A stretch of 20,320 nt of DNA. Source: Ochromonas danica. Its lineage: Eukaryota; Sar; Chrysophyceae; Chromulinales; Chromulinaceae. Where the stretch lies: NCBI GenBank assembly GCA_015146655.1, contig VKHL01000273.1, positions 1 through 20,320 on the forward strand, given 5' to 3'. Every line of letters begins with the position of its first letter. The stretch's first letter is position 1. Position numbers and translations under genes: made by a program. This document shows, piece after piece, positions 1,380-17,933 of the stretch. Under the pieces are notes generated by a model, which was not told the DNA's origin, did not search any database, and saw nothing but the letters and a program-made list of their open reading frames with translations.

Positions 1380-3018
1380 ATGTCATTACAAGAAGCACAG
1401 AAGGTAGAATTTCTTTTTTATTTATTTATTTTCTATTTACCCCTTCTCTCTCCCTCCACTCTCTCTCTCTGACTACTACCTCCCTCAGAGAGAGAGAGAG
1501 AGAGAGAGACAGTGACAGTGACAGAGAGAGAGGGGGGTTTGATTGGGTGTGCTTCGCTTCTTATTGCCACTGTTCCTATTGACTGATCACGCCCTGTCTC
1601 TCTCTCTTCCTCTTCCTCTACCTCTCTCACTATATATATATGATGTGTTGTGTGTGTATGATGTGTATGTGGTAGCATTTTGAAGTTCTGAAGAATAATG
1701 TGGAGAAGGGACAATATCAACTAGCTGAACGAGCTTTGACACCTTTGAAGGTGAGAGACCATGTCTGATATAATATTACCTATTTTGACCGCATAGTGTA
1801 TTAGTGTTACCTCTTAGCACACACACACAGACTACCCGGTGTGCTGTGTGTGGGTGTCTTTGTGGTGTTAGACTATGTGATATGCTGTAGTATACCATGT
1901 CAAGTCTGTATGTCATACTTAGCTAGTCTTACTATACTATGCTACATGTTACACTACATCACACTGTATGCACATACCACCTACTAATAGAGTCATGTCA
2001 TACCCTTATCACGCACACACTCTCTCTCTACCCTGTGCTTTGCTGTGCTGCTTTGATGATGTCAGGCTATATGATATACAATGGTCTGCTCTTGCCATGT
2101 GTCGTCTATCTGTCATGCTACTGTGATGTACTACTATACACACTATACACATCCCTACCTACTAATAGAGTCCTGTCTAACCTCTTCTCCTTCTTGTTCT
2201 TGTTGGTGTGTGAGAGTAGAAGATCATGCTAGACCTTGACTCTCTACCACCTATTCTAGCTAACACTAGTCCTACTGCTAAAGAAGAACGTCAACTCTTC
2301 CAGGCTGTATTGGAATACTCTGTCTTGCTGTCAGTCTATCTTGGTGATAAACAAGCTTTTCAGAAGTATCTTTCTTCTTTACAACCATACTATCATCTCT
2401 ATCGGAGGGTGAAAGAAGAGGAGAAGATCTCTCAAGTAACGGTAACAGTACTAGGTTTACACCTCCTCTTCCTCTTGGTAGAGAATCGTCTAGCAGATTT
2501 TCATTGTCAGATTGAATTATTATCTGATATTGAATTAAAACATCCTATGGTCTCTTTCTCTACACAATTAGAGAAATATCTTGTAGTTGGTGCTTATGAT
2601 CAGGTAGGTATCTGTAGTAGGTGTAGTAGTTCGTTGTTAACACTGTGTGTGTTGGTATGGTTAGGTCTTGGCAGCTGCTCAACTTCCACCTTCTCCAGCC
2701 TTTGCCTTCTTTTTAACTTCATTACAAGATACTGTCCGTATGAATATTTGTGAAGGATTATCTCGTGCTTGTCCTGTATTGAACTTGAAAGAAGCTGCTG
2801 CTTTGTTGATGTTCTCTACAGCTGATCAAGTCTGTCAGTTCTTGGAAGAACGTTGTCCTGATTGGATTGTAGGGGAAGGTGAAGTGATGCGTTATCATGT
2901 CGGTGGAGCAGGAGGAGAAGGAGAAGGTGGTAGTGGTCATCGTTGGCATGAAGAATTAGCTCCTAAATTGATTGCACAAACTCTATCTTATGCGATTGAA
3001 TTAGAGCGCATTGTGTAA
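1380..3018 (+). CDS. PSMD8: 26S proteasome lid subunit Rpn12 (PSMD8), four exons
   Basis: Non-ATPase subunit of the 19S regulatory particle lid, which helps assemble and hold the lid on the proteasome base. Exons by GT-AG splicing: 1380-1403, 1676-1750, 2220-2603 and 2665-3018; all junctions are phase 0. The product is 278 residues, close to the family's usual 260-350. It begins MSLQEAQK, then HFEVLKNNVEKGQYQLAERA, followed by the CSN8/PSMD8/eIF3K-type region. Matches to the family as I know it are LGLHLLFLLVENRLADFH (human LGLNLLFLLSQNRVAEFH), the KHPMVSFSTQLEKYLVVGAY segment, and the C-terminal end LSYAIELERIV (human VIEYARQLEMIV). The acceptor at 2218-2219 was preferred over 2221-2222 because the extra Lys keeps register with the human protein. 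The Gly-rich insert GGAGGEGEGGSG near residue 245 is specific to this copy. An AATAAA lies at 3044-3049. Introns are 272, 469 and 61 bp; the first holds GA repeats. Confidence 0.93.
1481..1540. repeat. (AG)n microsatellite in proteasome-gene intron 1
   Basis: A run of AG dinucleotides at about 1488-1509 is followed by short GACAGT and GAGA units. It lies inside the first intron of the Rpn12 gene and creates spurious open frames on the minus strand. Confidence 0.85.
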
Positions 3019-3490: not shown

Positions 3491-5813
3491 ATGTCAAATT
3501 CAAAATGGAATCTATCAAGTCAAGGTCATGCATTAGATCAATTACCATTATTAATAGCTGAACCATTACCACGTATACCACCACCTGGTATTACTAATAT
3601 GATCTCATTACGTCATATTATACCAAAATCACCAAGTCAAAATATACAAGATATTTGTTCCTTTTATTTACAAAAATGTTCCGGAAAATATGAACAAAAT
3701 CAAATAACTAGCCGTTATCTTCATTCCATGGTAGAAGAAATATTATCCCAATTATCAGGTATATCAGAAGAAGTAAAACGTAATCGATTAACACCTGAAG
3801 CCTTTCAAGCATGTCTTGATGAATGGAATGTCTATTTCCCTTCTTCATTACATACATATGGTACTTCACCCAAAGAAATTGCGTATTTCCTTAAAACCCA
3901 AGAGAGCGAAATTACACAATTGAAGAATCATCAGACAAAGATGATAAAGAAACATCAAGAAGAAATTGAAGAATTATTATTAACAATGAATCAACAATTA
4001 ACAGCTTATAAAGAAAGTGTATTATTAGAAAGACAACATCGTAAATATCAATTAGAAGAATTAATGCAACAAGCAAAACAAGAGATTGAAGAAGTAAGTG
4101 ATCAGTGTTAGTTTGATAGTTAGTAGATGGTATATAGAAGTTGTTAGATGTTATATGAAGTGGTTAGATAGTGGTTAGATTGTGTACATGTCTATTAGAT
4201 GGTATAAAGGTAGTCTAGAGTTACAGTGTTGTTATGGTGTAGATTCATTGTAAGCAGTAGATGGTTACGTTACGTTGTACTGTACCAGCGTACTGCTACT
4301 ACCACTACCCTGCTGTGTGACGTGTATCATTATGCTATATCTATTGTATATGCTATTCCTGCCTATACTCCTCCCACTGTGTGATGTTTGATTAGATTGT
4401 ATTGTAGCACCACCTCCTTGCACCTCCTCGTCCTCCATATATACTAACTTACCACTCCTCTACTACTATTACCACTATAGGTACGTCGTACTGGAATCAC
4501 TGATCGTGAAGCATTACAACAAGAACATGAAGTCCAACTAGCACGTTTACATCATTCTTATAGTGATACATTAACATCCTTACAAGATGAATTACAACGA
4601 CAACAACAACAATGGCAATCTAATTATCAATTAACATTACAAAAGAAAGAGAAACATGTTGAATTAGCTAAAGAACGATTTAATGAAATGAAAAGTTTAT
4701 ATCGTAAATTATATGATAAACATAAACTGTTATTACAACAGTTAGTAGTACGTCATCATGCTGGTAGTGGTGATAATGATATACTACATGATGAATTAGA
4801 TCGTGAGATGGAAGCTATTGAATTAGCTAAGTTAGATGATGATGATGATGATCAAGAGAATAAGAAAGATGGGGTAGCACATGAGGTAGAGCAAGGTAGT
4901 GGTGGTAGTGGTAGTGTGGGTAGTTCACCTGATGGGAAGGTGAATAGAAGAAGAAGGAGATCATCAATCATCCCACCAACACAAGTACGTAATGCTGATG
5001 AAGAAGCATATTATCAATTACAACAAACACATTTAATGCAATCAGCACAATTAACACGTTGTGAAGAAGAAATAAGAAGATATCAAATGAAAGAAAAGAC
5101 ACAAGAGTTACAAATACAATCTTTGAATGGACAGATTGTAACGTTATTAGAAGAAAGACAGAAACATTTGAGGTAGGTGGAAGAACCAGAAGAAGAGAGA
5201 AGTGTGGGTGTGGGTGTGTGTGCGTGTGTCTATGTGTATGTGTGTGTATGTACATGTGTGTGTGTGTGGGTATGTACGTGTGCGTGTATGTACATGTGTG
5301 TATATACGTGTGCGTGTGTCTATGTGTATGTATATGTACATGTGTGTGTGGGTATGTGTGTGTATGTACATGTGTACGTGTGTATGTATGTGTATGTATA
5401 GGTGTGTGTCTATGTGCATGTATGTACAATTGTGTGTGTGTGTGTGTACATGTGTGTGCGTGTGTGTGCATGGTATAATTCCACTAATGTCTTGCTTGTT
5501 AATCTTCTTCTTATCATCTTCTTTCTCTCCTGCTGGTAGTCGACTAGATGAATTAGAAGATCTTGTTCAAACATTACAACGAGCCTTATCAATGAAAGTT
5601 ATACAAGACAATGAACAACATCAACAACACTGTCCTTCTTCTCTACCATCACCTTGTAAATGCCAACAACGGGAAGGAATGGAAGAAAAGAAAGAGAAAG
5701 ATGATAAGCTTGTCTTATGTCATACTCCACATTTCCTTGACAAAGCTGATCGATATGGTCCCATGAGAGGCAAACAACGAGTGAAAGGTTACATGATTAG
5801 TGGTCATTATTAA
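3491..5813 (+). CDS. Coiled-coil protein of unknown function, three exons
   Basis: Exons 3491-4093, 4481-5172 and 5540-5813 give 522 residues. The junctions are phase 0 (...EIEE|VRRT...) and phase 2 (AG|T). The start at 3491 (MSNSKWNLSSQ) is preferred to an in-frame ATG at 3437, which would add a hydrophobic leader that does not fit the rest. Residues about 1-60 are Pro-rich (PLPRIPPPG). About 60-150 is a predicted helical region with two Trp/Tyr-rich patches. From about 135 to 280 there is a long coiled coil rich in Glu, Gln, Lys and Leu (ITQLKNHQTKMIKKHQEEIE). A DDDDDD acidic and Ser/Gly-rich linker with RRRRR follows near 310-365, then more coiled coil to about 455, and a Lys/Glu-rich tail with a CKC motif. 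The layout recalls flagellar or centrosomal coiled-coil proteins such as TSNAXIP1-like ones, but no residue match supports a name. The coding sequence is noticeably A/T-rich, with heavy use of TTA and CAA. Confidence 0.8.
5202..5475. repeat. Long TG/TATG-rich microsatellite in intron 2 of coiled-coil gene
   Basis: About 270 bp of alternating purine-pyrimidine sequence (TG, TATG, TACATG, CGTG units) fills most of the 367-bp intron 5173-5539. It yields long Met/Cys/Val frames on the plus strand and His/Thr frames on the minus strand that are artefacts. Such sequence is a classic Z-DNA former, and the many GT dinucleotides are decoy donor sites. Confidence 0.95.
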
Positions 5814-6091: not shown

Positions 6092-9000
6092 TTAAACTTG
6101 TTGTTGTTGTTGTTGCTGAGATAGCAGAAGCAAGTGATCTGATGGTAAGGTCTTCTCAGACGATGTCTCCTCCAACAATCTGCGCAGCTGCTGCTTCTGC
6201 TCTTGTCTTCTTCTTCTGCCTCCACTTCTCTTCTTCCCTTCCACCTCTTCTTCTTCTTCCTTCTCCCCCTCCTCGCCTGCTTGCTGTAGCAGTCGAGCAC
6301 GATGAGGTCCTGCAGCAGGAAGCAGATCCAGACCCGATACACCATGTAGAGTAGAAGCCATCAAGAGAGCTGATCGCTCCACCTGCTCGATGGGGTTGAT
6401 GTTCTTTTCTATCACCGTCTCCATCAAGGACTCATCGAAGCCATGGGTTGCTGCCACAATAATGTGCAAATCCACTGCCTCCAACTCCAACCCTCCAGAT
6501 CGAGTCAAGGCATCCAATAGATCGAAAGCTGCCTGCTTCGCACTTTCTTGCTCCACTTTCTCCACGGAGGAAGGAATCGCATTAGCTGAGGGCTTGGCCA
6601 AGAGAGCAGCTTGTCTCTTGCGACTCCAGGATGGACCCAGATTGATGATAGTAGGACGCAGAGCATTGTAGCTATCCAGACTGGAGAATTGTTCTTCAAG
6701 CAGGGAAGGTAGCTTGGTCACATCTATTTCAGGTTTACCAATAGGAGAAACTTGATGATTAGATCGTTGAGTTTCACGAGGTTGAGTTGTCTTTTCAACA
6801 GTCGTGTTGGAAATGGGCTTGCTAACTTCAGCCGAAGGGGTAGGTACTGGTACTGGTAATGGTGGTGGAGGTAGAGGTGCGGAAGATGGGGCTGCACATG
6901 GTGCGATGGGAGGAGGAGGAGGAGGAACATAGGCAGTAGTAGATGGGGAACGTACTACTCTTGCTCTGGCACTACCACCACCACCACCACCGCCGGCGCC
7001 ACCACCAAATGATAACAGCGATGCCCCAGTAGCTAGCAGACCACCTCCACTAAGCAGAGATCTCGATTTCCTCTCAAATCGTACAGCAGAAGACTGAAGA
7101 ACCAAATGATCCAAACCGTCTGCGCAACCATTATCCTCGCATTCCTCAGAAGATCTCCAAGATTGAGCAGAAGTATGAGTTAAATCAGCAGCAGGAATAA
7201 GTTCTTTACGACCATATTCAAACTCTCTTTGTTGATTAGCTTCTTTCACTTCTTCTTCCTTGGCCTTGGCAATCATCTCCAACATCGCTGCCACATGTCG
7301 CTTCACTGCTTCCAATCGAACTTCAGGTGATGCCCCTCCATCGCTGCCATCATCGTCATCATCACCTTCCTCGCCTTGTCTCTTTCGCTTGCCAAGATTA
7401 TCGAAAGATAACAGATCGGGAGGAATCTGATAGTCGATGAAGAGAGACATGAGATCTTGTGTCAAGCGGATCTCCTTCGTTAAGCTGTCTCGAGCCAGAT
7501 GAAGCACCTTCTCCAACTGAGGCTTGATCTGCACCACACAGACTGCAAACAAAGTGCTCTCGATCTGCATGGCACGGAAAGCCTGGGCGAAGCGCTGCTG
7601 CTCTGGAGAGAGAGACTCGATCGCATCTCGGAACTGCTTCGGGGTGGGGATGGGATCCAATAACAAAGGCAGTCTCCATTCATCTTTGTTCTGCACGATG
7701 AAGGCATGCTTTGGCTCGAACAGCTGCTTTGATGCCATTCGACCCAGCAGCACCACATAGCTGGAGAACTGTCTGGCCTGAGCCACCAGCTGCAGTTTGG
7801 GCAAAGAAGCCTGCAAATCACTGCCTCCCCCTCCCCCACAACTTGGTCTGTAACGAGCTTCGGGACTGAATCCGTGGGCCAGCCAGCAGTGCACATAGCG
7901 CTCTCCACGGAATCGAACTCGTGTAGAGGCATTCAACGCAAACTCCATCAGCTTGTTGCCACTCTCACTCCCGGATGACGCTCCTCTTGGGATAGGAGGA
8001 AGCTGGCGACAAAAGGTCAGAATCGAGTCTGCACGCACTCCATCCACCGCCAACAAATTGCTCGACTGGCCCAACACTTGATCCGAGAAGTCAGACTCAA
8101 TGCGGATGACACCTTCAGGAGAATGCTCATTCGATCGTCGCACACCATAGTTGAATGCACGAGGAGCAAAGGCTTCAGAGAAGAGCTTGCGATAGTGGAA
8201 GTTCATGTAGTTAGCGAAGTCTGCAGGTCCCAACTCCCGTCCAATCGCTGCGATCAACTGGCGGCGAAGCATGAACTCGATGTAGTCAAGGCCTTCTTGC
8301 AGCTGCAGGGAGAGATCAGCCAGATGGTAACATGACAGAACCAAATGAGCCAAGATGGGAGTGATGAGAGGTGTCGAGGAAGAAGAGGAAGAAGAAGCCG
8401 TGGTAACAAGACCATCCAGCTCAGCAAAGCGACTGCGAAGACTGCGGCTCTGTTCATTCACCATAGCACATACTTCCGACTGACCCAACACCACCTGAGA
8501 TGCCACCTGCTGACTCACAGTCACAGCGGAAGAAGTGGAGGCAGAAGGAGCAGTTGAAGGTACAAACACCGCCTCTGCTTCGTCATCTGCTATCTTACTC
8601 TCTTCCGCCAGCAACGCTGTCGCTCCAGCACCAGCTTCTTCGGAGGCTTCGGCCTCATCGTTCAAGAAGAGAGGCAAGACAGGATTGAAGAGTATCGCGA
8701 TGTTAGCCAGAGCAGATAGATCGATCTTGCTCTTCTCTACAAAGCGATTCTGGACGGAGAAGACTTGATTCGTCAGATGCGAAGCAACCTGCTGGCTCCA
8801 TATAGAAAGATCCTGGAGACAGCTCAAGGCAGACTCCACATCTTTATTTCGACGAGGAGTGTGACAATCGTCTGCACTGCGATCAATGGAGAACTCCAAG
8901 CTCGTCGCATTCGCTGGCAACACATCCAACAACCAGCTGATGTTCGTGTCGAAGGCTTCAAAGGTCTTCTCAGCATAGGGAGGCTGCTTGTTTCTCACCA

Positions 9001-9526
9001 CCACCGCCTGCTCTCCTTCCTGCTCCACGATCAACACCTTCTCACCCTCTGGATCAGACCCGGAGAAGCCTGTCAAGCGATAGTGGTGACGGAAGAGATA
9101 GTGGTACTCTGTGATCTTGGTGATGACCTTGGTCGTGGTCTTCTCTCGAAACACGCCTGCCACCGTCTTCTCCGTCTCCACACGATGACTGCTCTCCTCA
9201 TCTCGTGTAGTCTCCTTCACAAAGACACAGCTGCTCTCGAAAGAGGATCGTAAGGAGATGGCTTTCTTCTCATCTCTCCACTCTCTCAAGCGACGATATT
9301 GCTCTTCATTCAGACCCAGTGCTTGGAAAGTATTCCACACTGCAGCTGCTGCACAACCCACCAGTTGCTCTGCTAGGAGGTACTTGTCATTATACTTGTG
9401 AGGGGTTTGATCAGCAAGACCAAGAACTTGTGCTTTATCTGCTTGGAGGAGACGTTGAACTTTCCTCAAGCAGTTCTCCAACTTATCTCGAAATAAAAAC
9501 TCGTCCATAGAAGAAGAGGCTGACAT
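6092..9526 (-). CDS. Large conserved-type protein A, unknown function (proline-rich linker form)
   Basis: Single open frame of 1144 residues, no intron needed; start MSASSSMDEF. No signal peptide or membrane segment is seen, so it is probably cytosolic or nuclear. Residues 1-280: mixed alpha/beta region with HRVETEKTVAGVFREKTTTK near 115-133. About 525-708: conserved-looking core, including IESLSPEQQRFAQAFRAMQ and LTKEIRLTQDLMSLFIDYQI. About 710-730: GKRKRQG, then an acidic DDDDD run. 770-929: variable linker with a Gly run (GGGAGGGGGGGS) and polyproline (PPPPPP, PLPPPPLPVPVPTPS) of the kind bound by SH3, EVH1, WW or profilin partners. About 930-1075: ALRPTIINLG, AFDLLDALTRSGGLELEAVD and NPIEQVERSALLMASTLHGV. 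Tail: poly-Glu, basic, Gln-rich (SQQQQQQQV). From memory, the core and C-terminal motifs occur together in large uncharacterised protist proteins, but no function can be assigned. Copy B at 13732-17097 is nearly identical outside two segments. Confidence 0.85.
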   Translation of the reverse strand: MSASSSMDEFLFRDKLENCLRKVQRLLQADKAQVLGLADQTPHKYNDKYLLAEQLVGCAAAAVWNTFQALGLNEEQYRRLREWRDEKKAISLRSSFESSCVFVKETTRDEESSHRVETEKTVAGVFREKTTTKVITKITEYHYLFRHHYRLTGFSGSDPEGEKVLIVEQEGEQAVVVRNKQPPYAEKTFEAFDTNISWLLDVLPANATSLEFSIDRSADDCHTPRRNKDVESALSCLQDLSIWSQQVASHLTNQVFSVQNRFVEKSKIDLSALANIAILFNPVLPLFLNDEAEASEEAGAGATALLAEESKIADDEAEAVFVPSTAPSASTSSAVTVSQQVASQVVLGQSEVCAMVNEQSRSLRSRFAELDGLVTTASSSSSSSTPLITPILAHLVLSCYHLADLSLQLQEGLDYIEFMLRRQLIAAIGRELGPADFANYMNFHYRKLFSEAFAPRAFNYGVRRSNEHSPEGVIRIESDFSDQVLGQSSNLLAVDGVRADSILTFCRQLPPIPRGASSGSESGNKLMEFALNASTRVRFRGERYVHCWLAHGFSPEARYRPSCGGGGGSDLQASLPKLQLVAQARQFSSYVVLLGRMASKQLFEPKHAFIVQNKDEWRLPLLLDPIPTPKQFRDAIESLSPEQQRFAQAFRAMQIESTLFAVCVVQIKPQLEKVLHLARDSLTKEIRLTQDLMSLFIDYQIPPDLLSFDNLGKRKRQGEEGDDDDDGSDGGASPEVRLEAVKRHVAAMLEMIAKAKEEEVKEANQQREFEYGRKELIPAADLTHTSAQSWRSSEECEDNGCADGLDHLVLQSSAVRFERKSRSLLSGGGLLATGASLLSFGGGAGGGGGGGSARARVVRSPSTTAYVPPPPPPIAPCAAPSSAPLPPPPLPVPVPTPSAEVSKPISNTTVEKTTQPRETQRSNHQVSPIGKPEIDVTKLPSLLEEQFSSLDSYNALRPTIINLGPSWSRKRQAALLAKPSANAIPSSVEKVEQESAKQAAFDLLDALTRSGGLELEAVDLHIIVAATHGFDESLMETVIEKNINPIEQVERSALLMASTLHGVSGLDLLPAAGPHRARLLQQAGEEGEKEEEEEVEGKKRSGGRRRRQEQKQQLRRLLEETSSEKTLPSDHLLLLSQQQQQQQV
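6740..7219 (-). other. Variable cassette of large gene A (160 codons)
   Basis: This segment has no visible similarity to the equivalent 16051-16449 in gene B, although flanking DNA on both sides is almost identical. It begins at the first base of codon 770 and ends at the last base of codon 929, before the shared GKPEIDVTKL. It encodes the Gly-run and polyproline linker. It stays open throughout and has no splice-site pair at its edges, so it is coding sequence and not an intron. Confidence 0.9.
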
Positions 9527-9768
9527 CTAATAAGGAAGAAGTAGTTAGTTTGACTAGACAAGGATAGTCTCTCAGACAAGGACAAGGTGGTTCTTAATAG
9601 TATAGACTAGTTGTAGTAATTTATGGTATGGTATGGATAGACTGGGAGAGCTTTGTTGATGTTGTGCTGGGCCCAGGCCTTCTTGATGCTGTGGGTGAGA
9701 GAGAGACAGAGAGAGATTGCTGGGAGAAGATTGGCTTGCACCACGCATCACAATAATAACTGAACGTC
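9527..9768 (-). promoter_or_regulatory. Conserved upstream segment of large gene A (promoter/5' UTR)
   Basis: These 242 bp directly before the ATG match 13490-13731 upstream of gene B essentially base for base, and the match stops abruptly at the far edge. They contain a perfect CTGGGCCCAG palindrome (9667-9676) and GA-rich runs. Being shared, the segment probably gives both copies the same core promoter and leader. No TATA box is certain. Confidence 0.55.
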
Positions 9769-10399: not shown

Positions 10400-11527
10400 T
10401 TACCAACCATTGCAAGGTGCTTTGGATAATGCACTCTCTGTCTGAGGACCATAGATACCATCCTCAGAGATCTTACTGTTTGGGTTATGACGATTCCATA
10501 AACGTTGGAATGCCAACAAATTCTTGGACGCGATATCTGGAGATCCAGAATAGTCAAAGTGCACAGGATCACTTGAAGGATAGGAATGTACCCAACCATA
10601 AGCACTTAATGGACCATTCCAATAGCTGTAGTAGCTTGTATCAATAGCACGTCCTCCTTCATGGTTGCTGGACCCAGGAGAAGCAGCCAGAGAAATGCCA
10701 CACATGCCACGCTTATACCACTCATAGAGAAGGTATTGCTCAGCAGAAGATCTGAAGGCAGAGTTCAGTGTAATGTAGTCGTTCACAGAACGAGCTGCAG
10801 ACTCCAAACTATCCGCGGCTTTGGACTGTAAAGTGCAAGAGAAACCTGGGCAATGAACATAGTTGCCATTCAGACCACGGAAGCTGTACCCCATGGACCC
10901 CAACTCAGCAATAATCTGGTTGGTGAGACCCAGTGCGATCTTGTTGGAATCACAACCACTGTTGATGGACCCACCGAGAGTACATCCACCACCGCCTCCA
11001 ACGCAGCATTGCAAATCACTCGGACCACTGCAATAACCAGACACAGAGGTACCAGAACAAGCAGATTTTTGTTTGCAAGTTCCACTTCCTTGAGGAGTGG
11101 AACATTTGTTACTAGTGCAGCATTTAATATCAGACGATCCAGGACAAAGGCCGGAAGTGACAGTGCCACTGCAGCAACCAGAAGAGATAGAGACACAGAC
11201 ACCTTCAATCCCTCCAACACTAAATCACAGACACACACACAGGCATAGCAGCACATTGACACAGAGTGAATCAGTGAGTGAATGAGTGAGTGAGCGAGCA
11301 AGGGAGTGAGTGTGTAACTGAGTGAACCAGGGAGGGAGGAAGGAAGGAAGAGTTGTAGTTCTGTCATACCTGCAAGTGGCTTGGTAGCTGCAGAACTTCA
11401 AGGTGGAATTAGATGATAAATCTACATTCATTTCTTCCTTTCTTAAATTCCCATTTTCTCCACGAACAACTCCCAATAAGCCAAGAGTGAGATAAAGAAC
11501 GAAAAGAGTGGTAGTGAAATTTGCCAT
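10400..11527 (-). CDS. Secreted M15-family zinc carboxypeptidase A (peptidoglycan), two exons
   Basis: Predicted D-Ala-D-Ala carboxypeptidase-type enzyme acting outside the cell or in phagosomes on bacterial peptidoglycan. Minus-strand exons: 11527-11370 and 11219-10400, with a phase 2 GT-AG intron of 150 bp; 325 residues from MANFTTTLFV. An ATG two codons earlier (11533) is also possible. Order: signal peptide (about 1-23), short linker, two Cys-rich repeats ending in CC (CCSGTVTSGLCPGSSDIKCC; CSGTSVSGYCSGPSDLQCC), a Gly-rich hinge, then the M15 domain. The zinc-ligand pattern SNHEGGRAID (H239, D246) is followed by DPVHFDY (H273, with D270 in the usual catalytic acid position of the M15A class). 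The C-terminal motif AFQRLW...SEDGIYGPQTESAL is a peptidoglycan-binding type 1 signature. Divergent from copy B across a 236-bp gap. Expression and activity are not shown by sequence. Confidence 0.88.
11220..11369 (-). other. Intron of M15 gene A with (GAGT)n-like repeat
   Basis: GT-AG intron of 150 bp in phase 2, at the same position as the 106-bp intron of copy B. The extra length comes largely from GAGT/GAGC-type repeats on the plus strand (about 11268-11312) and a GGAA-rich run. Both introns end in a GTGTGTSTG..ATTTAG acceptor, so the intron predates the duplication. Confidence 0.8.
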
Positions 11528-11763: not shown

Positions 11764-12850
11764 ATGACAAAGTTCACTTTCCTAATTTTTGCCTTGATTG
11801 GGTTGTTGGAGTCTGGCCAATCCGCTGTGGCTAATGGAAACAATTTGAGAAAAGGTTCTGCTGCCTCTCAGGGTGTAGCCACTAATGCTACTTTGAAGTT
11901 TTGTGATTATGAAGACACTTGCAAGTAAGCTCTCATAATCACAATAATTTAAAACGCGAATGACCCTATCGGACTACCGATTGACTGACTGACTGTTTAT
12001 TCGTTCGGTATGTGTGTGTCTGTCATTTAGTGTTGGAGGGATTGAAGGTGTCTGTGTCTCTATCTCTTCTGGTTGCTGCAGTGGCACTGTCACTTCCGGC
12101 CTTTGCCCTGGATCATCTGATATTAAATGCTGCACTAGCAACAGCTGCTCTACTCCTCAAGGAAGTGGAACTTGCAAGCAGACCTCTGCTTGTTCTGGTA
12201 CCTCTGTGTCCGGTTATTGCAGTGGTCCAGGTGACTTGCAATGCTGCGTAGGAGGTGGAGGTGGATGTACTCTGGGTGGGGCAATTTATGGTGGCTGCGA
12301 TTCTTCCAGTGTGACTCAAGGCATAACCAATCAGATCGTTGCCGAGTTGGGATCCATGGGGTACAGCTTCCGTGGGCTTGACGGAAACTGGGTGCATTGC
12401 CCAGGCTTCTCTTGCACGTTGCAAAACAGTGCTGCAGATAGTCTGGAAGCTGCAGCTCGTTCTGTGAACGACTACATTACCCTGAACTCTGCCTTCAGAT
12501 CTTCTGCTGAGCAATACCTTCTCTATGAGTGGTATAAGCGTGGCATGTGTGGCATTTCTCTGGCTGCTTCTCCTGGGTCCAGCAACCATGAAGGAGGACG
12601 TGCTATTGATACAAGCTACTACAGCTATTGGAATGGTCCATTAAGTGCTTATGGTTGGGTACATTCCTATCCTTCAAGTGATCCTGTGCACTTTGACTAT
12701 TCTGGATCTCCAGACATTTGTTCGCAAAACTTGTTGGCATTCCAACGTTTGTGGAATCGTCATAACCCTGGTAACACCATTTCTGAGGATGGTATCTATG
12801 GTCCTCAGACTGAGAATGCTTTCTACTATGCACCTTGCAATGGTTGGTAA
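11764..12850 (+). CDS. Secreted M15-family zinc carboxypeptidase B (peptidoglycan), two exons
   Basis: Paralogue of copy A in mirror orientation. Exons 11764-11924 and 12031-12850 join in phase 2 (AA|T) to give 326 residues; exon 1 is short and easily missed. Signal peptide about 1-20 (MTKFTFLIFALIGLLESGQS). Cys-rich repeats at about 70-88 and 108-126, Gly-rich hinge 128-138, M15 domain about 150-280. Likely zinc ligands are H240, D247 (SNHEGGRAID) and H274 (DPVHFDY), with D271 as the likely catalytic acid by M15A spacing. Peptidoglycan-binding-like tail about 286-318 (LLAFQRLWNRHNPGNTISED). All expected catalytic residues are present. Exon 1 and the last 40 residues differ most from A (NAFYYAPCNGW versus SALSKAPCNGW), while residues about 195-281 are nearly identical in DNA. 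The fold and substrate are inferred from bacterial relatives. Bacterial origin by transfer is plausible, but the added intron and signal peptide show eukaryotic adaptation. Confidence 0.9.
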
Positions 12851-13489: not shown

Positions 13490-13731
13490 GACGTTCAGTT
13501 ATTATTGTGATGCGTGGTGCAAGCCAATCTTCTCCCAGCAATCTCTCTCTGTCTCTCTCTCACCCACAGCATCAAGAAGGCCTGGGCCCAGCACAACATC
13601 AACAAAGCTCTCCCAGTCTATCCATACCATACCATAAATTACTACAACTAGTCTATACTATTAAGAACCACCTTGTCCTTGTCTGAGAGACTATCCTTGT
13701 CTAGTCAAACTAACTACTTCTTCCTTATTAG
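13490..13731 (+). promoter_or_regulatory. Conserved upstream segment of large gene B (promoter/5' UTR)
   Basis: Mirror copy of 9527-9768, essentially identical to it, including the CTGGGCCCAG palindrome (13582-13591). Similarity to the left copy ends sharply at 13490, which marks the inner end of the outer arm. Identity in non-coding sequence shows that the arm is recent or recently homogenised, rather than kept alike only by protein constraint. Confidence 0.55.
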
Positions 13732-16700
13732 ATGTCAGCCTCTTCTTCTATGGACGAGTTTTTATTTCGAGATAAGTTGGAGAACTGCTTGAGGAAAGTT
13801 CAACGTCTCCTCCAAGCAGATAAAGCACAAGTTCTTGGTCTTGCTGATCAAACCCCTCACAAGTATAATGACAAGTACCTCCTAGCAGAGCAACTGGTGG
13901 GTTGTGCAGCAGCTGCAGTGTGGAATACTTTCCAAGCACTGGGTCTGAATGAAGAGCAATATCGTCGCTTGAGAGAGTGGAGAGATGAGAAGAAAGCCAT
14001 CTCCTTACGATCCTCTTTCGAGAGCAGCTGTGTCTTTGTGAAGGAGACTACACGAGATGAGGAGAGCAGTCATCGTGTGGAGACGGAGAAGACGGTGGCA
14101 GGCGTGTTTCGAGAGAAGACCACGACCAAGGTCATCACCAAGATCACAGAGTACCACTATCTCTTCCGTCACCACTATCGCTTGACAGGCTTCTCCGGGT
14201 CTGATCCAGAGGGTGAGAAGGTGTTGATCGTGGAGCAGGAAGGAGAGCAGGCGGTGGTGGTGAGAAACAAGCAGCCTCCCTATGCTGAGAAGACCTTTGA
14301 AGCCTTCGACACGAACATCAGCTGGTTGTTGGATGTGTTGCCAGCGAATGCGACGAGCTTGGAGTTCTCCATTGATCGCAGTGCAGACGATTGTCACACT
14401 CCTCGTCGAAATAAAGATGTGGAGTCTGCCTTGAGCTGTCTCCAGGATCTTTCTATATGGAGCCAGCAGGTTGCTTCGCATCTGACGAATCAAGTCTTCT
14501 CTGTCCAGAATCGCTTTGTGGAGAAGAGCAAGATCGATCTATCTGCTCTGGCTAACATCGCGATGCTCTTCAATCCTGTCTTGCCTCTCTTCTTGAACGA
14601 TGAGGTGGAAGCCTCCGAAGAAGCTGGTGCTGGAGCGACAGCGTTGGAGGTGAGAGAGGGTATGATAGCAGATGACGAAGCAGATGCGGTGCTTGTACCT
14701 TCAGCTGCTCCTTCTGCCTCCACTTCTTCCGCTGTGACTGTGAGTCAGCAGCGCACCACCGCTGAGACTTCTCAGGTGGTGTTGGGTCAGTCGGAAGTAT
14801 GTGCTATGGTGAATGAACAGAGCCGCAGTCTTCGCAGTCGCTTTGCTGAGCTGGATGGTCTTGTTACCACGGCTTCTTCTTCCTCTTCTTCCTCGACACC
14901 TCTCATCACTCCCATCTTGGCTCATTTGGTTCTGTCATGTTACCATCTGGCTGATCTCTCCCTGCAGCTGCAAGAAGGCCTTGACTACATCGAGTTCATG
15001 CTTCGCCGCCAGTTGATCGCAGCGATTGGACGGGAGTTGGGACCTGCAGACTTCGCTAACTACATGAACTTCCACTATCGCAAGCTCTTCTCTGAAGCCT
15101 TTGCTCCTCGTGCATTCAACTATGGTGTGCGACGATCGAATGAGCATTCTCCTGAAGGTGTCATCCGCATTGAGTCTGACTTCTCGGATCAAGTGTTGGG
15201 CCAGTCGAGCAATTTGTTGGCGGTGGATGGAGTGCGTGCAGACTCGATTCTGACCTTTTGTCGCCAGCTTCCTCCTATCCCAAGAGGAGCGTCATCCGGG
15301 AGTGAGAGTGGCAACAAGCTGATGGAGTTTGCGTTGAATGCCTCTACACGAGTTCGATTCCGTGGAGAGCGCTATGTGCACTGCTGGCTGGCCCACGGAT
15401 TCAGTCCCGAAGCTCGTTACAGACCAAGTTGTGGGGGAGGGGGAGGCAGTGATTTGCAGGCTTCTTTGCCCAAACTGCAGCTGGTGGCTCAGGCCAGACA
15501 GTTCTCCAGCTATGTGGTGCTGCTGGGTCGAATGGCATCAAAGCAGCTGTTCGAGCCAAAGCATGCCTTCATCGTGCAGAACAAAGATGAATGGAGACTG
15601 CCTTTGTTATTGGATCCCATCCCCACCCCGAAGCAGTTCCGAGATGCGATCGAGTCTCTCTCTCCAGAGCAGCAGCGCTTCGCCCAGGCTTTCCGTGCCA
15701 TGCAGATCGAGAGCACTTTGTTTGCAGTCTGTGTGGTGCAGATCAAGCCTCAGTTGGAGAAGGTGCTTCATCTGGCTCGAGACAGCTTAACGAAGGAGAT
15801 CCGCTTGACACAAGATCTCATGTCTCTCTTCATCGACTATCAGATTCCTCCCGATCTGTTATCTTTCGATAATCTTGGCAAGCGAAAGAGACAAGGCGAG
15901 GAAGGTGATGATGACGATGATGGCAGCGATGGAGGGGCATCACCTGAAGTTCGATTGGAAGCAGTGAAGCGACATGTGGCAGCGATGTTGGAGATGATTG
16001 CCAAGGCCAAGGAAGAAGAAGTGAAAGAAGCTAATCAACAACGAGAGTTTTTGTTTGGTTCTTCTCAACCGCCTACTTATCAGGCTGCTGCAATGGTGCC
16101 AAGGGCGGATTTGCATTCTGCTATCACCGCTCGTGGTGGTTCTAACAGCTTTCCTCTTGACAGTCTTCTTTTCGCTGCTCCTGGAAGCAAGGCCCCTGCA
16201 GGTGCTCCGATGGCTAAGATGATGGCTAAAGGTGCTGTGCGTGGAAGAGGAGGTGGTCATGCAGCAAGATCATTTCGAGCCCCAGAAATGGCATCGATGA
16301 CTACTCAAGACACCAGTAGCATCATGGTTGGTATGGCTCAAATGCAGCAGCCATCTATTCTCCAAGGGGCACCAACCAACCAGGTCCAACCTTCCCCGGT
16401 AAAACCCGACAAGAAAGAGGATGTTGGTTCCTCTTATGAACTTGTTACCGGTAAACCTGAAATAGATGTGACCAAGCTACCTTCCCTGCTTGAAGAACAA
16501 TTCTCCAGTCTGGACAGCTACAATGCTCTGCGTCCTACTATCATCAATCTGGGTCCATCCTGGAGTCGCAAGAGACAAGCTGCTCTCTTGGCCAAGCCCT
16601 CAGCTAATGCGATTCCTTCCTCCGTGGAGAAAGTGGAGCAAGAAAGTGCGAAGCAGGCAGCTTTCGATCTATTGGATGCCTTGACTCGATCTGGAGGGTT

Positions 16701-17097
16701 GGAGTTGGAGGCAGTGGATTTGCACATTATTGTGGCAGCAACCCATGGCTTCGATGAGTCCTTGATGGAGACGGTGATAGAAAAGAACATCAACCCCATC
16801 GAGCAGGTGGAGCGATCAGCTCTCTTGATGGCTTCTACTCTACATGGTGTATCGGGTCTGGATCTGCTTCCTGCTGCAGGACCTCATCGTGCTCGACTGC
16901 TACAGCAAGCAGGCGAGGAGGGGGAGAAGGAAGAAGAAGAAGAGGTGGAAGGGAAGAAGAGAAGTGGAGGCAGAAGAAGAAGACAAGAGCAGAAGCAGCA
17001 GCTGCGCAGATTGTTGGAGGAGACGTCGTCTGAGAAGACCTTACCATCAGATCACTTGCTTCTGCTATCTCAGCAACAACAACAACAACAAGTTTAA
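13732..17097 (+). CDS. Large conserved-type protein B, unknown function (Arg/Gly/Met/Gln linker form)
   Basis: Single open frame of 1121 residues, the inverted twin of 6092-9526. Residues 1-277 match copy A, including synonymous sites in the parts I compared. About 278-346 hold clustered changes (EVREGMIADD versus LAEESKIADD; QQRTTAETSQ versus QQVASQ). About 347-773 are the same in protein, including the IESLSPEQQRFAQAFRAMQ and LTKEIRLTQDLMSLFIDYQI core. 774-906 is a quite different linker, rich in Ala, Met, Gly and Gln (GAPMAKMMAKGAVRGRGGGH). 907 to the end again matches A, including ALRPTIINLG, the NPIEQVERS region and the poly-Glu/poly-Gln tail. Only a few silent differences flank the linker (an Arg codon at about 16042, an Asp codon near 16508, a Thr codon near 17026). 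Function is unknown. The shared frame and promoter suggest the same basic role with different linker partners. Confidence 0.85.
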   Translation: MSASSSMDEFLFRDKLENCLRKVQRLLQADKAQVLGLADQTPHKYNDKYLLAEQLVGCAAAAVWNTFQALGLNEEQYRRLREWRDEKKAISLRSSFESSCVFVKETTRDEESSHRVETEKTVAGVFREKTTTKVITKITEYHYLFRHHYRLTGFSGSDPEGEKVLIVEQEGEQAVVVRNKQPPYAEKTFEAFDTNISWLLDVLPANATSLEFSIDRSADDCHTPRRNKDVESALSCLQDLSIWSQQVASHLTNQVFSVQNRFVEKSKIDLSALANIAMLFNPVLPLFLNDEVEASEEAGAGATALEVREGMIADDEADAVLVPSAAPSASTSSAVTVSQQRTTAETSQVVLGQSEVCAMVNEQSRSLRSRFAELDGLVTTASSSSSSSTPLITPILAHLVLSCYHLADLSLQLQEGLDYIEFMLRRQLIAAIGRELGPADFANYMNFHYRKLFSEAFAPRAFNYGVRRSNEHSPEGVIRIESDFSDQVLGQSSNLLAVDGVRADSILTFCRQLPPIPRGASSGSESGNKLMEFALNASTRVRFRGERYVHCWLAHGFSPEARYRPSCGGGGGSDLQASLPKLQLVAQARQFSSYVVLLGRMASKQLFEPKHAFIVQNKDEWRLPLLLDPIPTPKQFRDAIESLSPEQQRFAQAFRAMQIESTLFAVCVVQIKPQLEKVLHLARDSLTKEIRLTQDLMSLFIDYQIPPDLLSFDNLGKRKRQGEEGDDDDDGSDGGASPEVRLEAVKRHVAAMLEMIAKAKEEEVKEANQQREFLFGSSQPPTYQAAAMVPRADLHSAITARGGSNSFPLDSLLFAAPGSKAPAGAPMAKMMAKGAVRGRGGGHAARSFRAPEMASMTTQDTSSIMVGMAQMQQPSILQGAPTNQVQPSPVKPDKKEDVGSSYELVTGKPEIDVTKLPSLLEEQFSSLDSYNALRPTIINLGPSWSRKRQAALLAKPSANAIPSSVEKVEQESAKQAAFDLLDALTRSGGLELEAVDLHIIVAATHGFDESLMETVIEKNINPIEQVERSALLMASTLHGVSGLDLLPAAGPHRARLLQQAGEEGEKEEEEEVEGKKRSGGRRRRQEQKQQLRRLLEETSSEKTLPSDHLLLLSQQQQQQQV
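16051..16449 (+). other. Variable cassette of large gene B (133 codons)
   Basis: Occupies the place of 6740-7219 in gene A but is unrelated in sequence. It begins at the first base of codon 774 and ends at the last base of codon 906, before GKPEIDVTKL. The encoded linker has an RGRGGGH motif, several Met/Gln pairs and a Lys/Pro-rich end. It lacks the polyproline of copy A. Confidence 0.9.
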
Positions 17098-17208: not shown

Positions 17209-17237
17209 CCAGTGGATGTTGTGTAGCTATCCACTGG
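17209..17237 (+). terminator. Perfect 9-bp stem-loop downstream of large gene B
   Basis: CCAGTGGAT (17209-17217) pairs perfectly with ATCCACTGG (17229-17237) across an 11-base loop, 112 bp past the stop codon. It could be a 3' UTR or 3'-end structure. It also abuts the outer end of the foldback repeat that follows, so it may be the tip of that element. Confidence 0.3.
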
Positions 17238-17933
17238 TTGACCATCGCAGAATATGATCCTCGCTGACCTCCTCAATACTTAACGATAACTTCATCAGCG
17301 TGTGACTTAACTATAACTACAGTTCTTCTTCATAGCAACTGTTCACAAGGGTGAGTCTCACCTTTCATCATTTCAAGCACACAGCATTTGGTGATTTTGA
17401 CCCAATAGTATCATGATGCAATAGTACGTACGTGTGATATGAATTTAGTGCTGGTTTTGATGAGAAGACAAATAATATCACAAGGACTGAGATCGGTGAT
17501 TTTAGCCAATTGTTTTATCCATGCTGACAATTTTGAGGCTATCCATGTCTACATAAAGACATAAATTAGATGGTCTCCAAATAGTCAGCGTGAACAAAAG
17601 ACTGATATTGGATTGATATTGACCAACTGTTCGGTTTGGCGTTTTCGCATTTTCGGAGTTTCGTCTTTGTTGATAGTTGAAACCCCTGTTTTTCGACTTT
17701 CTTTCCACTCTCTACCAATTGGCGAGGGAAAAAATAATAATCACGAGTCAATAAGTAAGTTGAAGAGGAGAAAGTTGAAAAACAGGGGTTTCAACTATCA
17801 ACAGAGACGAAACTCCGAAAATGCGAAAACGCCAAACCGAACAGTTGCTGTTGATATGCTGATGAAGTTATCGTTAAGTGTTGAGGTGGTCAGCGAGGAT
17901 CATATTCTGCGATAATCAACCTGTGGATACCTA
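17224..17933. mobile_element. Foldback (hairpin) repeat element, non-coding
   Basis: An imperfect inverted repeat. The right arm is 17769-17933. The left arm is split into 17224-17344 and 17633-17702. The arms meet across a loop of about 66 bp (17703-17768). The best-matching parts are the inner arms (17633-17702 against 17769-17838, containing GTTGATAGTTGAAACCCCTG) and the outer arms (17247-17300 against 17862-17912, containing CGCAGAATATGATCCTCGCT). No transposase or other coding sequence is seen, so this is a foldback or MITE-like non-autonomous element, or an inverted duplication of unknown origin. Confidence 0.7.
17345..17632. mobile_element. 288-bp insertion in the foldback left arm with 9-bp direct repeats
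   Basis: The 9-bp sequence CAACTGTTC occurs at 17336-17344 and 17624-17632, flanking the segment that breaks the left arm. The uninterrupted right arm has it once. This is the pattern of a target-site duplication, with a length typical of Mutator-like elements and some others. I see no clear terminal inverted repeats, so the family is not assigned; an arm-specific deletion on the right is the alternative. Confidence 0.5.

Follow-up and report, generated by a model that had tools for sequence, protein, structure and literature searches.

How can two copies of a gene stay almost identical along most of their length and carry, at the same place, segments with nothing visible in common? The question is raised by a 20,320-bp stretch of DNA from Ochromonas danica, the whole of contig VKHL01000273.1 (here the window, or C273), from the single genome examined (GCA_015146655.1; 31,187,593 bases in 337 contigs). 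Two large genes, A and B, are mutually inverted copies on this contig (Table 1). A first-pass annotation, made from the sequence letters, had offered two explanations for their unlike linkers: an exchange of cassettes, as in antigen- or partner-switching systems, or repeated gene conversion of the flanking DNA, with two long-diverged linkers left in between. The mosaic that it described is real, but it overlooked a second divergent patch in A and B, the inverted VanY genes between them, and a further pair of relatives on two other contigs.

Table 1. Coordinates of the features discussed, on contig C273
Feature	Positions	Strand	Description
Gene A	6092..9526	-	one open frame, 1144 aa
Linker of A	6740..7219	-	480 bp, 160 codons, poly-Gly and poly-Pro, fourfold-site GC 0.19
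Conserved family core, 87 aa	7391..7651	-	72-81% identical to 11 homologues in bacterial genome bins
Second patch, A	8501..8653	-	codons 292 to about 342, 12-bp length difference from B
A upstream non-coding DNA	9527..9768	-	242 bp, identical to B counterpart
VanY-type D-Ala-D-Ala carboxypeptidase copy 1	10400..11239	-	mirror image of copy 2, apparently patchy conversion
VanY-type carboxypeptidase copy 2	12011..12850	+	mirror image of copy 1
B upstream non-coding DNA	13490..13731	+	242 bp, identical to A counterpart
Gene B	13732..17097	+	one open frame, 1121 aa
Second patch, B	14605..14769	+	counterpart of A patch
Linker of B	16051..16449	+	399 bp, 133 codons, Met/Gln/Arg/Gly-rich, fourfold-site GC 0.24

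Results

Base-level alignment of A and B bore out the picture of near-identical flanks around an unlike segment. Between a point 242 bp 5' of the start codon and one 3 bp beyond the stop codon, most 100-column blocks are 100% identical, and identity is lost at the linker, at the second patch and at the outer ends, beyond which the DNA past the 3' ends shows no similarity (score reached by 56/200 shuffles). Outside the linker and one small indel, the 983 aligned codons show 5 synonymous and 10 non-synonymous codon differences, with a dS of 0.003-0.013 outside the second patch. The breaks at the linker are sharp, falling between 7219 and 7220 and between 6739 and 6740 in A, and between 16050 and 16051 and between 16449 and 16450 in B. 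The annotated 160- and 133-codon segments do keep the frame, which is open through both, and the reported absence of visible similarity also held: the forward score of linker A against linker B was reached by 35/200 codon-shuffled DNA controls. We rejected an inversion or reversal of the linker, given that the reversed score was reached by 61/200 such controls and that the reverse complement, weakly above shuffles (5/200), is unconvincing among the 18 comparisons made.

The second patch is a burst of protein change within otherwise nearly identical genes. Nine of the ten non-synonymous codon differences between A and B fall in codons 292-325, and codons 278-335 hold 12 non-synonymous changes and 1 synonymous change (dN 0.099, dS 0.023; Nei-Gojobori), for which positive selection or a small templated change is possible. 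Elsewhere in the window, nested inverted repeats at 17224-17933 (79-nt arms, 97% identical and 66 nt apart; 76-nt arms, 92% identical and 558 nt apart) are possibly a foldback element, a long impure GT-rich repeat (5202-5468) adjoins coding-like frames, and open frames near 2226-3018 presumably represent an interrupted 26S proteasome subunit gene, which marks the contig as eukaryotic.

The inverted VanY genes between A and B (Pfam PF02557, E 2.7e-07 and 4.1e-07) encode cysteine-rich proteins that, we assume, perhaps serve the digestion of bacterial walls. Their dS varies from 0 (codons 0-29) through 0.43 (29-90), 1.64 (90-150) and 0.02 (150-230) to 0.62 (230-279), a mosaic as would be expected from an old duplication overwritten here and there by conversion. 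Traces of similarity persist in the spacers between the VanY genes and A/B (local score 31, where shuffles average 22 and 1/200 attains it) and in the centre between the VanY copies (0/200 shuffles reach the score). Since the VanY genes and A/B stand in mirror-image order, A and B may share the old duplication of the VanY pair and would, on gene order, be of the same age. Given a shared duplication, A and B are far more alike than this age implies, with a dS of about 0.01 against up to 1.64 in VanY; this would mean recent homogenisation of A and B, of which the linkers are the part that escaped.

Silent-site composition also changes at the linkers. Fourfold-site GC is 0.49 in the flanks of A (226/463), against 0.19 in linker A (20/107; Fisher p 6e-9). 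Linker B stands at 0.24 (19/78; p 7e-5), and the lowest value in any 160-codon stretch of the A 5' flank is 0.42. In 40-codon bins the flanks of A range from about 0.2 (codons 1-49) and 0.25 (codons 1050-1089) up to 0.75. Among 50 frames of at least 250 aa, a non-random sample from the loci studied that contains pieces of these genes, the median is 0.29 and only two frames exceed 0.49, both of them repeat arrays on contig C113. The drop at the linkers of A and B suggests that linkers and flanks have separate silent-site histories.

Searching the genome with protein A returned two further full-length relatives, on contigs C7 (386 kb) and C74 (139 kb), bringing the family to at least four members (19 candidates scored; the other matches are weak and fall on the low-complexity linker). 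The C7 and C74 proteins hardly differ from each other and align with A at 37% identity, and very long branches separate the two pairs in a tree that carries a long-branch warning. Here too identity breaks at the linker. The 1910 bp 5' of the linker are identical (0 substitutions in 1907 aligned bp in a BLAST alignment), then come unrelated, in-frame segments of 144 and 150 bp (forward DNA score reached by 75/200 shuffles), and 3' of the linker the first 945 bp hold one difference, at position 33. The A/B and C7/C74 islands have matching left edges, within about four residues of an aligned Phe. On the right they differ, with C7 and C74 becoming identical again about 60 residues before A and B do.

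The non-coding edges of C7 and C74 have diverged, with 13 substitutions in 197 aligned bp plus 54 gap columns on the 5' side (BLAST alignment) and 4 substitutions in 348 bp (1.1%) on the 3' side. A fragment in C74 that matches a histidine-kinase gene downstream of C7 carries 7 substitutions in 179 positions. As the flanking DNA is only 1-7% diverged, linkers of common descent would still align, so the C7/C74 linker was replaced and not slowly mutated; the annotation's contention that point mutation cannot explain such a pattern is right, and it is strongest here. Alternatively, one copy derives from an allele or a lost copy bearing another linker. The 0 substitutions in 1907 bp despite a diverged 5' edge make conversion seem necessary for this pair as well.

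The C74 gene (L022) is without 10 bp, around 3215, that are present near the 5' end of the C7 gene (L021), so that its frame is shifted; the two are identical for 389 bp before and 1910 bp after this gap, and C74 is perhaps a copy in decay. The DNA immediately 5' of the C74 gene holds a degraded fragment (L022 2365-2603) of what we take to be a histidine-kinase-like gene; the fragment has relatives at 72-82% on other contigs. The C7 counterpart lies downstream of its gene, an arrangement suggestive of a copy derived from a tandem array or a circle.

Linkers of the two pairs are of different kinds. In the C74 linker, 24-bp units repeated in tandem make up roughly two thirds of the length, and the C7 linker contains a run of QPS units; the PT repeat PF04886 in C7 covers its linker only. 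Repeats of this QPS/PTS type are common in the genome, with at least 177 and at least 226 matches at E up to 10 (150 of 1180 and 150 of 1525 candidates scored), and QPSSQPSG-type repeats are present in many large frames, as would suit a stramenopile alga. Linkers A and B are not of this type. In a DNA search of the 31.2-Mb assembly, which skips simple repeats, linkers A and B matched only themselves and no near-identical donor was found for the C74 linker, while the only protein relative of linker B was one weak match (E 0.385). Judged by composition, the linker, which lies between a helical region and a C-terminal helical domain, is probably disordered; its pLDDT is about 26-34 in a weak AlphaFold model (mean 49.5) in which large parts of the conserved core are also below 50.

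Bacterial genomes hold relatives of these genes. Scanned with the whole alignment they gave no matches, and with the core alone they gave 11 loci (L025-L035), six from Myxococcota-named bins, three from Deltaproteobacteria, one from Planctomycetota and one from a bin named only 'bacterium'. These relatives share the architecture, with a low-complexity linker at the equivalent place that is Pro-, Ala- and often Met-rich or made of DPF repeats. Unlike A and B, close bacterial relatives keep alignable linkers. In a comparison of twelve sequences, from which L033 was dropped as it ends at the linker, linkers can be aligned in all three bacterial pairs whose core identity is 71-85% (0/200 shuffles each), as they can in 15 of the 23 bacterial pairs at 60-70% when judged at 2/200 shuffles or fewer. 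A and B, at 98.7% core identity in the same comparison, have a linker score reached by 41/200 shuffles. That linkers align at 71-85% core identity in bacteria and fail to do so at 98.7% in A and B supports conversion of the flanks. Linker A scores above all 200 shuffles against 4 of the 10 bacterial linkers, presumably owing to its proline runs, and linker B against none (lowest 5/200).

In the tree (midpoint root, long-branch warning), A and B lie nearer the bacteria than C7 and C74 do, which makes gene transfer possible. Known families gave little further orientation. For the protein body there was no match above the curated Pfam cut-off (A, B, C7, L026, L030), above the NCBIfam cut-off (A, C7) or in PADLOC (B, L026, L030). 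A sequence search of the PDB with B returned one match only (E 0.81), and Foldseek against the PDB with the weak AlphaFold model returned 0 matches at E up to 0.001. Viral contigs held no relative when scanned with the whole alignment; the core alone found one, L024, a frame at 33% identity that presumably resembles phage terminase and that we rejected as a spurious match. The bacterial neighbours share no Pfam domain (seven frames at 5 of the 11 loci, some of them maybe chance frames).

Discussion

The reading that we favour, and hold to be moderately probable, is that interlocus gene conversion keeps the copies of each gene uniform outside a disordered linker, which changes quickly and, once diverged, is no longer converted. 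A and B would be the arms of a probably old inverted duplication that included the VanY neighbour, and recurrent conversion between them would hold the non-linker parts nearly identical. The linker would turn over fast through repeat slippage, indels and occasional replacement. Once the linkers were no longer homologous, conversion would end there on both sides, or conversions that overwrote a linker would not be kept; we infer that the linkers matter to function. The same process may have acted independently on the dispersed C7/C74 pair, in which tandem-repeat sequence, of a kind widespread in the genome, would have taken the place of the linker. Between the two explanations first offered for A and B, conversion of the flanks around old, diverged linkers is the better supported, and cassette exchange found no support.

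Some observations sit less easily with conversion. An old remnant that conversion had missed would not be expected to show the 12:1 excess of non-synonymous changes seen in the second patch. The silent-site contrast in A and B, which GC-biased conversion sparing the linkers would yield, would equally follow from a GC-rich bacterial origin of the flanks combined with host-made linkers. The flanks of C7 have a fourfold-site GC of only 0.24 despite the near-identity of C7 and C74, which speaks against a simple rise in GC wherever conversion acts, and some 40-codon bins within the A flanks (codons 1-49 and 1050-1089) are low as well. The GC contrast in A and B may instead reflect the origin of the gene.

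An explanation that dispenses with recurrent conversion, and that we regard as unlikely but well worth weighing, is a recent duplication of the whole gene followed by capture of a linker through ectopic recombination with another gene. It fits C7 and C74 best, where non-coding edges and the kinase fragment are still closely similar and the linkers are unrelated, and the 1.1% divergence of the 3' edge leaves slightly more room for it. The linkers of this pair consist of repeats that occur in many other frames, and the C7 linker finds its best match to another gene, among the loci examined, in a repeat array on C238 (88% over 68 bp). Capture has more difficulty with the absence of substitutions in 1907 bp beside a diverged 5' edge, for which conversion seems needed, and with linkers A and B, which lie outside the repeat pool; nor were near-identical donors of linkers A, B and C74 found in the assembly by a search that skips simple repeats.

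A bolder proposal gives the linker itself the active part. The interdomain linker would be an exchanged module, the whole disordered segment being swapped in frame in at least two anciently separate pairs, from the genome's low-complexity repeat pool or from lost paralogues, with conversion fixing the rest, so that one scaffold would carry interchangeable linkers. On the present evidence we consider this improbable.

An assembly artefact, in which collapsed repeat arms or mixed haplotypes were joined to the wrong linkers, seems very improbable. A and B do sit in a palindrome on a 20-kb contig, a difficult structure, but the frame is kept in all four linkers, linkers A, B and C74 are each found once at the DNA level, and the same pattern occurs in C7 and C74, an independent pair whose contigs measure 386 and 139 kb.

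Programmed switching of cassettes or partners with silent donor linkers, one of the two original proposals, we find barely credible. Sharp, in-frame edges at all four loci are what it would call for. However, the genome has at least four family members with one linker per locus, the search for additional copies or silent donors found linkers A and B once each in 31.2 Mb and gave no further DNA copy of the C74 linker (simple repeats skipped), and linker B has the single weak protein match described above. Nor do repeats at the edges stand out from control: at each of the four linkers, the longest direct or inverted ones fall inside the spread of 200 control positions. It is just as hard to credit that the linkers are alternative exons or contain introns, which would leave the mature proteins more alike than their DNA: the C7 linker does have an intron-like GTATGC...TTGCAG stretch, but all four genes read through the linker in an open frame, and this candidate was rejected because its 109 nt are not a multiple of three and its removal breaks the frame.

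Because almost nothing but the linker varies within them, these pairs are natural experiments, from which the contribution of an interdomain linker to a protein could be read. A further question on which they bear is whether a fast-changing segment need only lose its homology for concerted evolution to end locally. Such a local escape could lock in divergence without selection.

Islands of divergence in converted duplicates are known, RHCE/RHD being one case. A and B likewise have a restricted, highly divergent region within homogenised sequence. In a review, divergence peaks are described as arising where selection restricts conversion, as in exon 5 of the human red and green opsins, and conversion is said to continue until substitutions, transposable elements or other large indels disrupt pairing (PMC3924837). 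GOT1p1 and GOT1p2 of the copepod Tigriopus are described as having islands of divergence under ongoing conversion (PMC3728101). The spider ampullate silk genes are reported to combine rapid diversification with homogenisation in one family (PMC9779670); they differ in that clustered silk genes are concerned there, and not an interdomain linker. Among literature titles and abstract openings we found no description of a pattern of this type in a linker. The opsin and GOT1 genes resemble A/B and C7/C74 in being conversion-homogenised paralogues with one restricted region in two versions. In contrast to both, the island here is a whole linker without detectable homology, of unequal length and with sharp edges, and it recurs from an equivalent left edge in a second, distant pair. 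Divergence islands are thus familiar from converted duplicates, but an island made of a whole non-homologous linker, found twice, is new.
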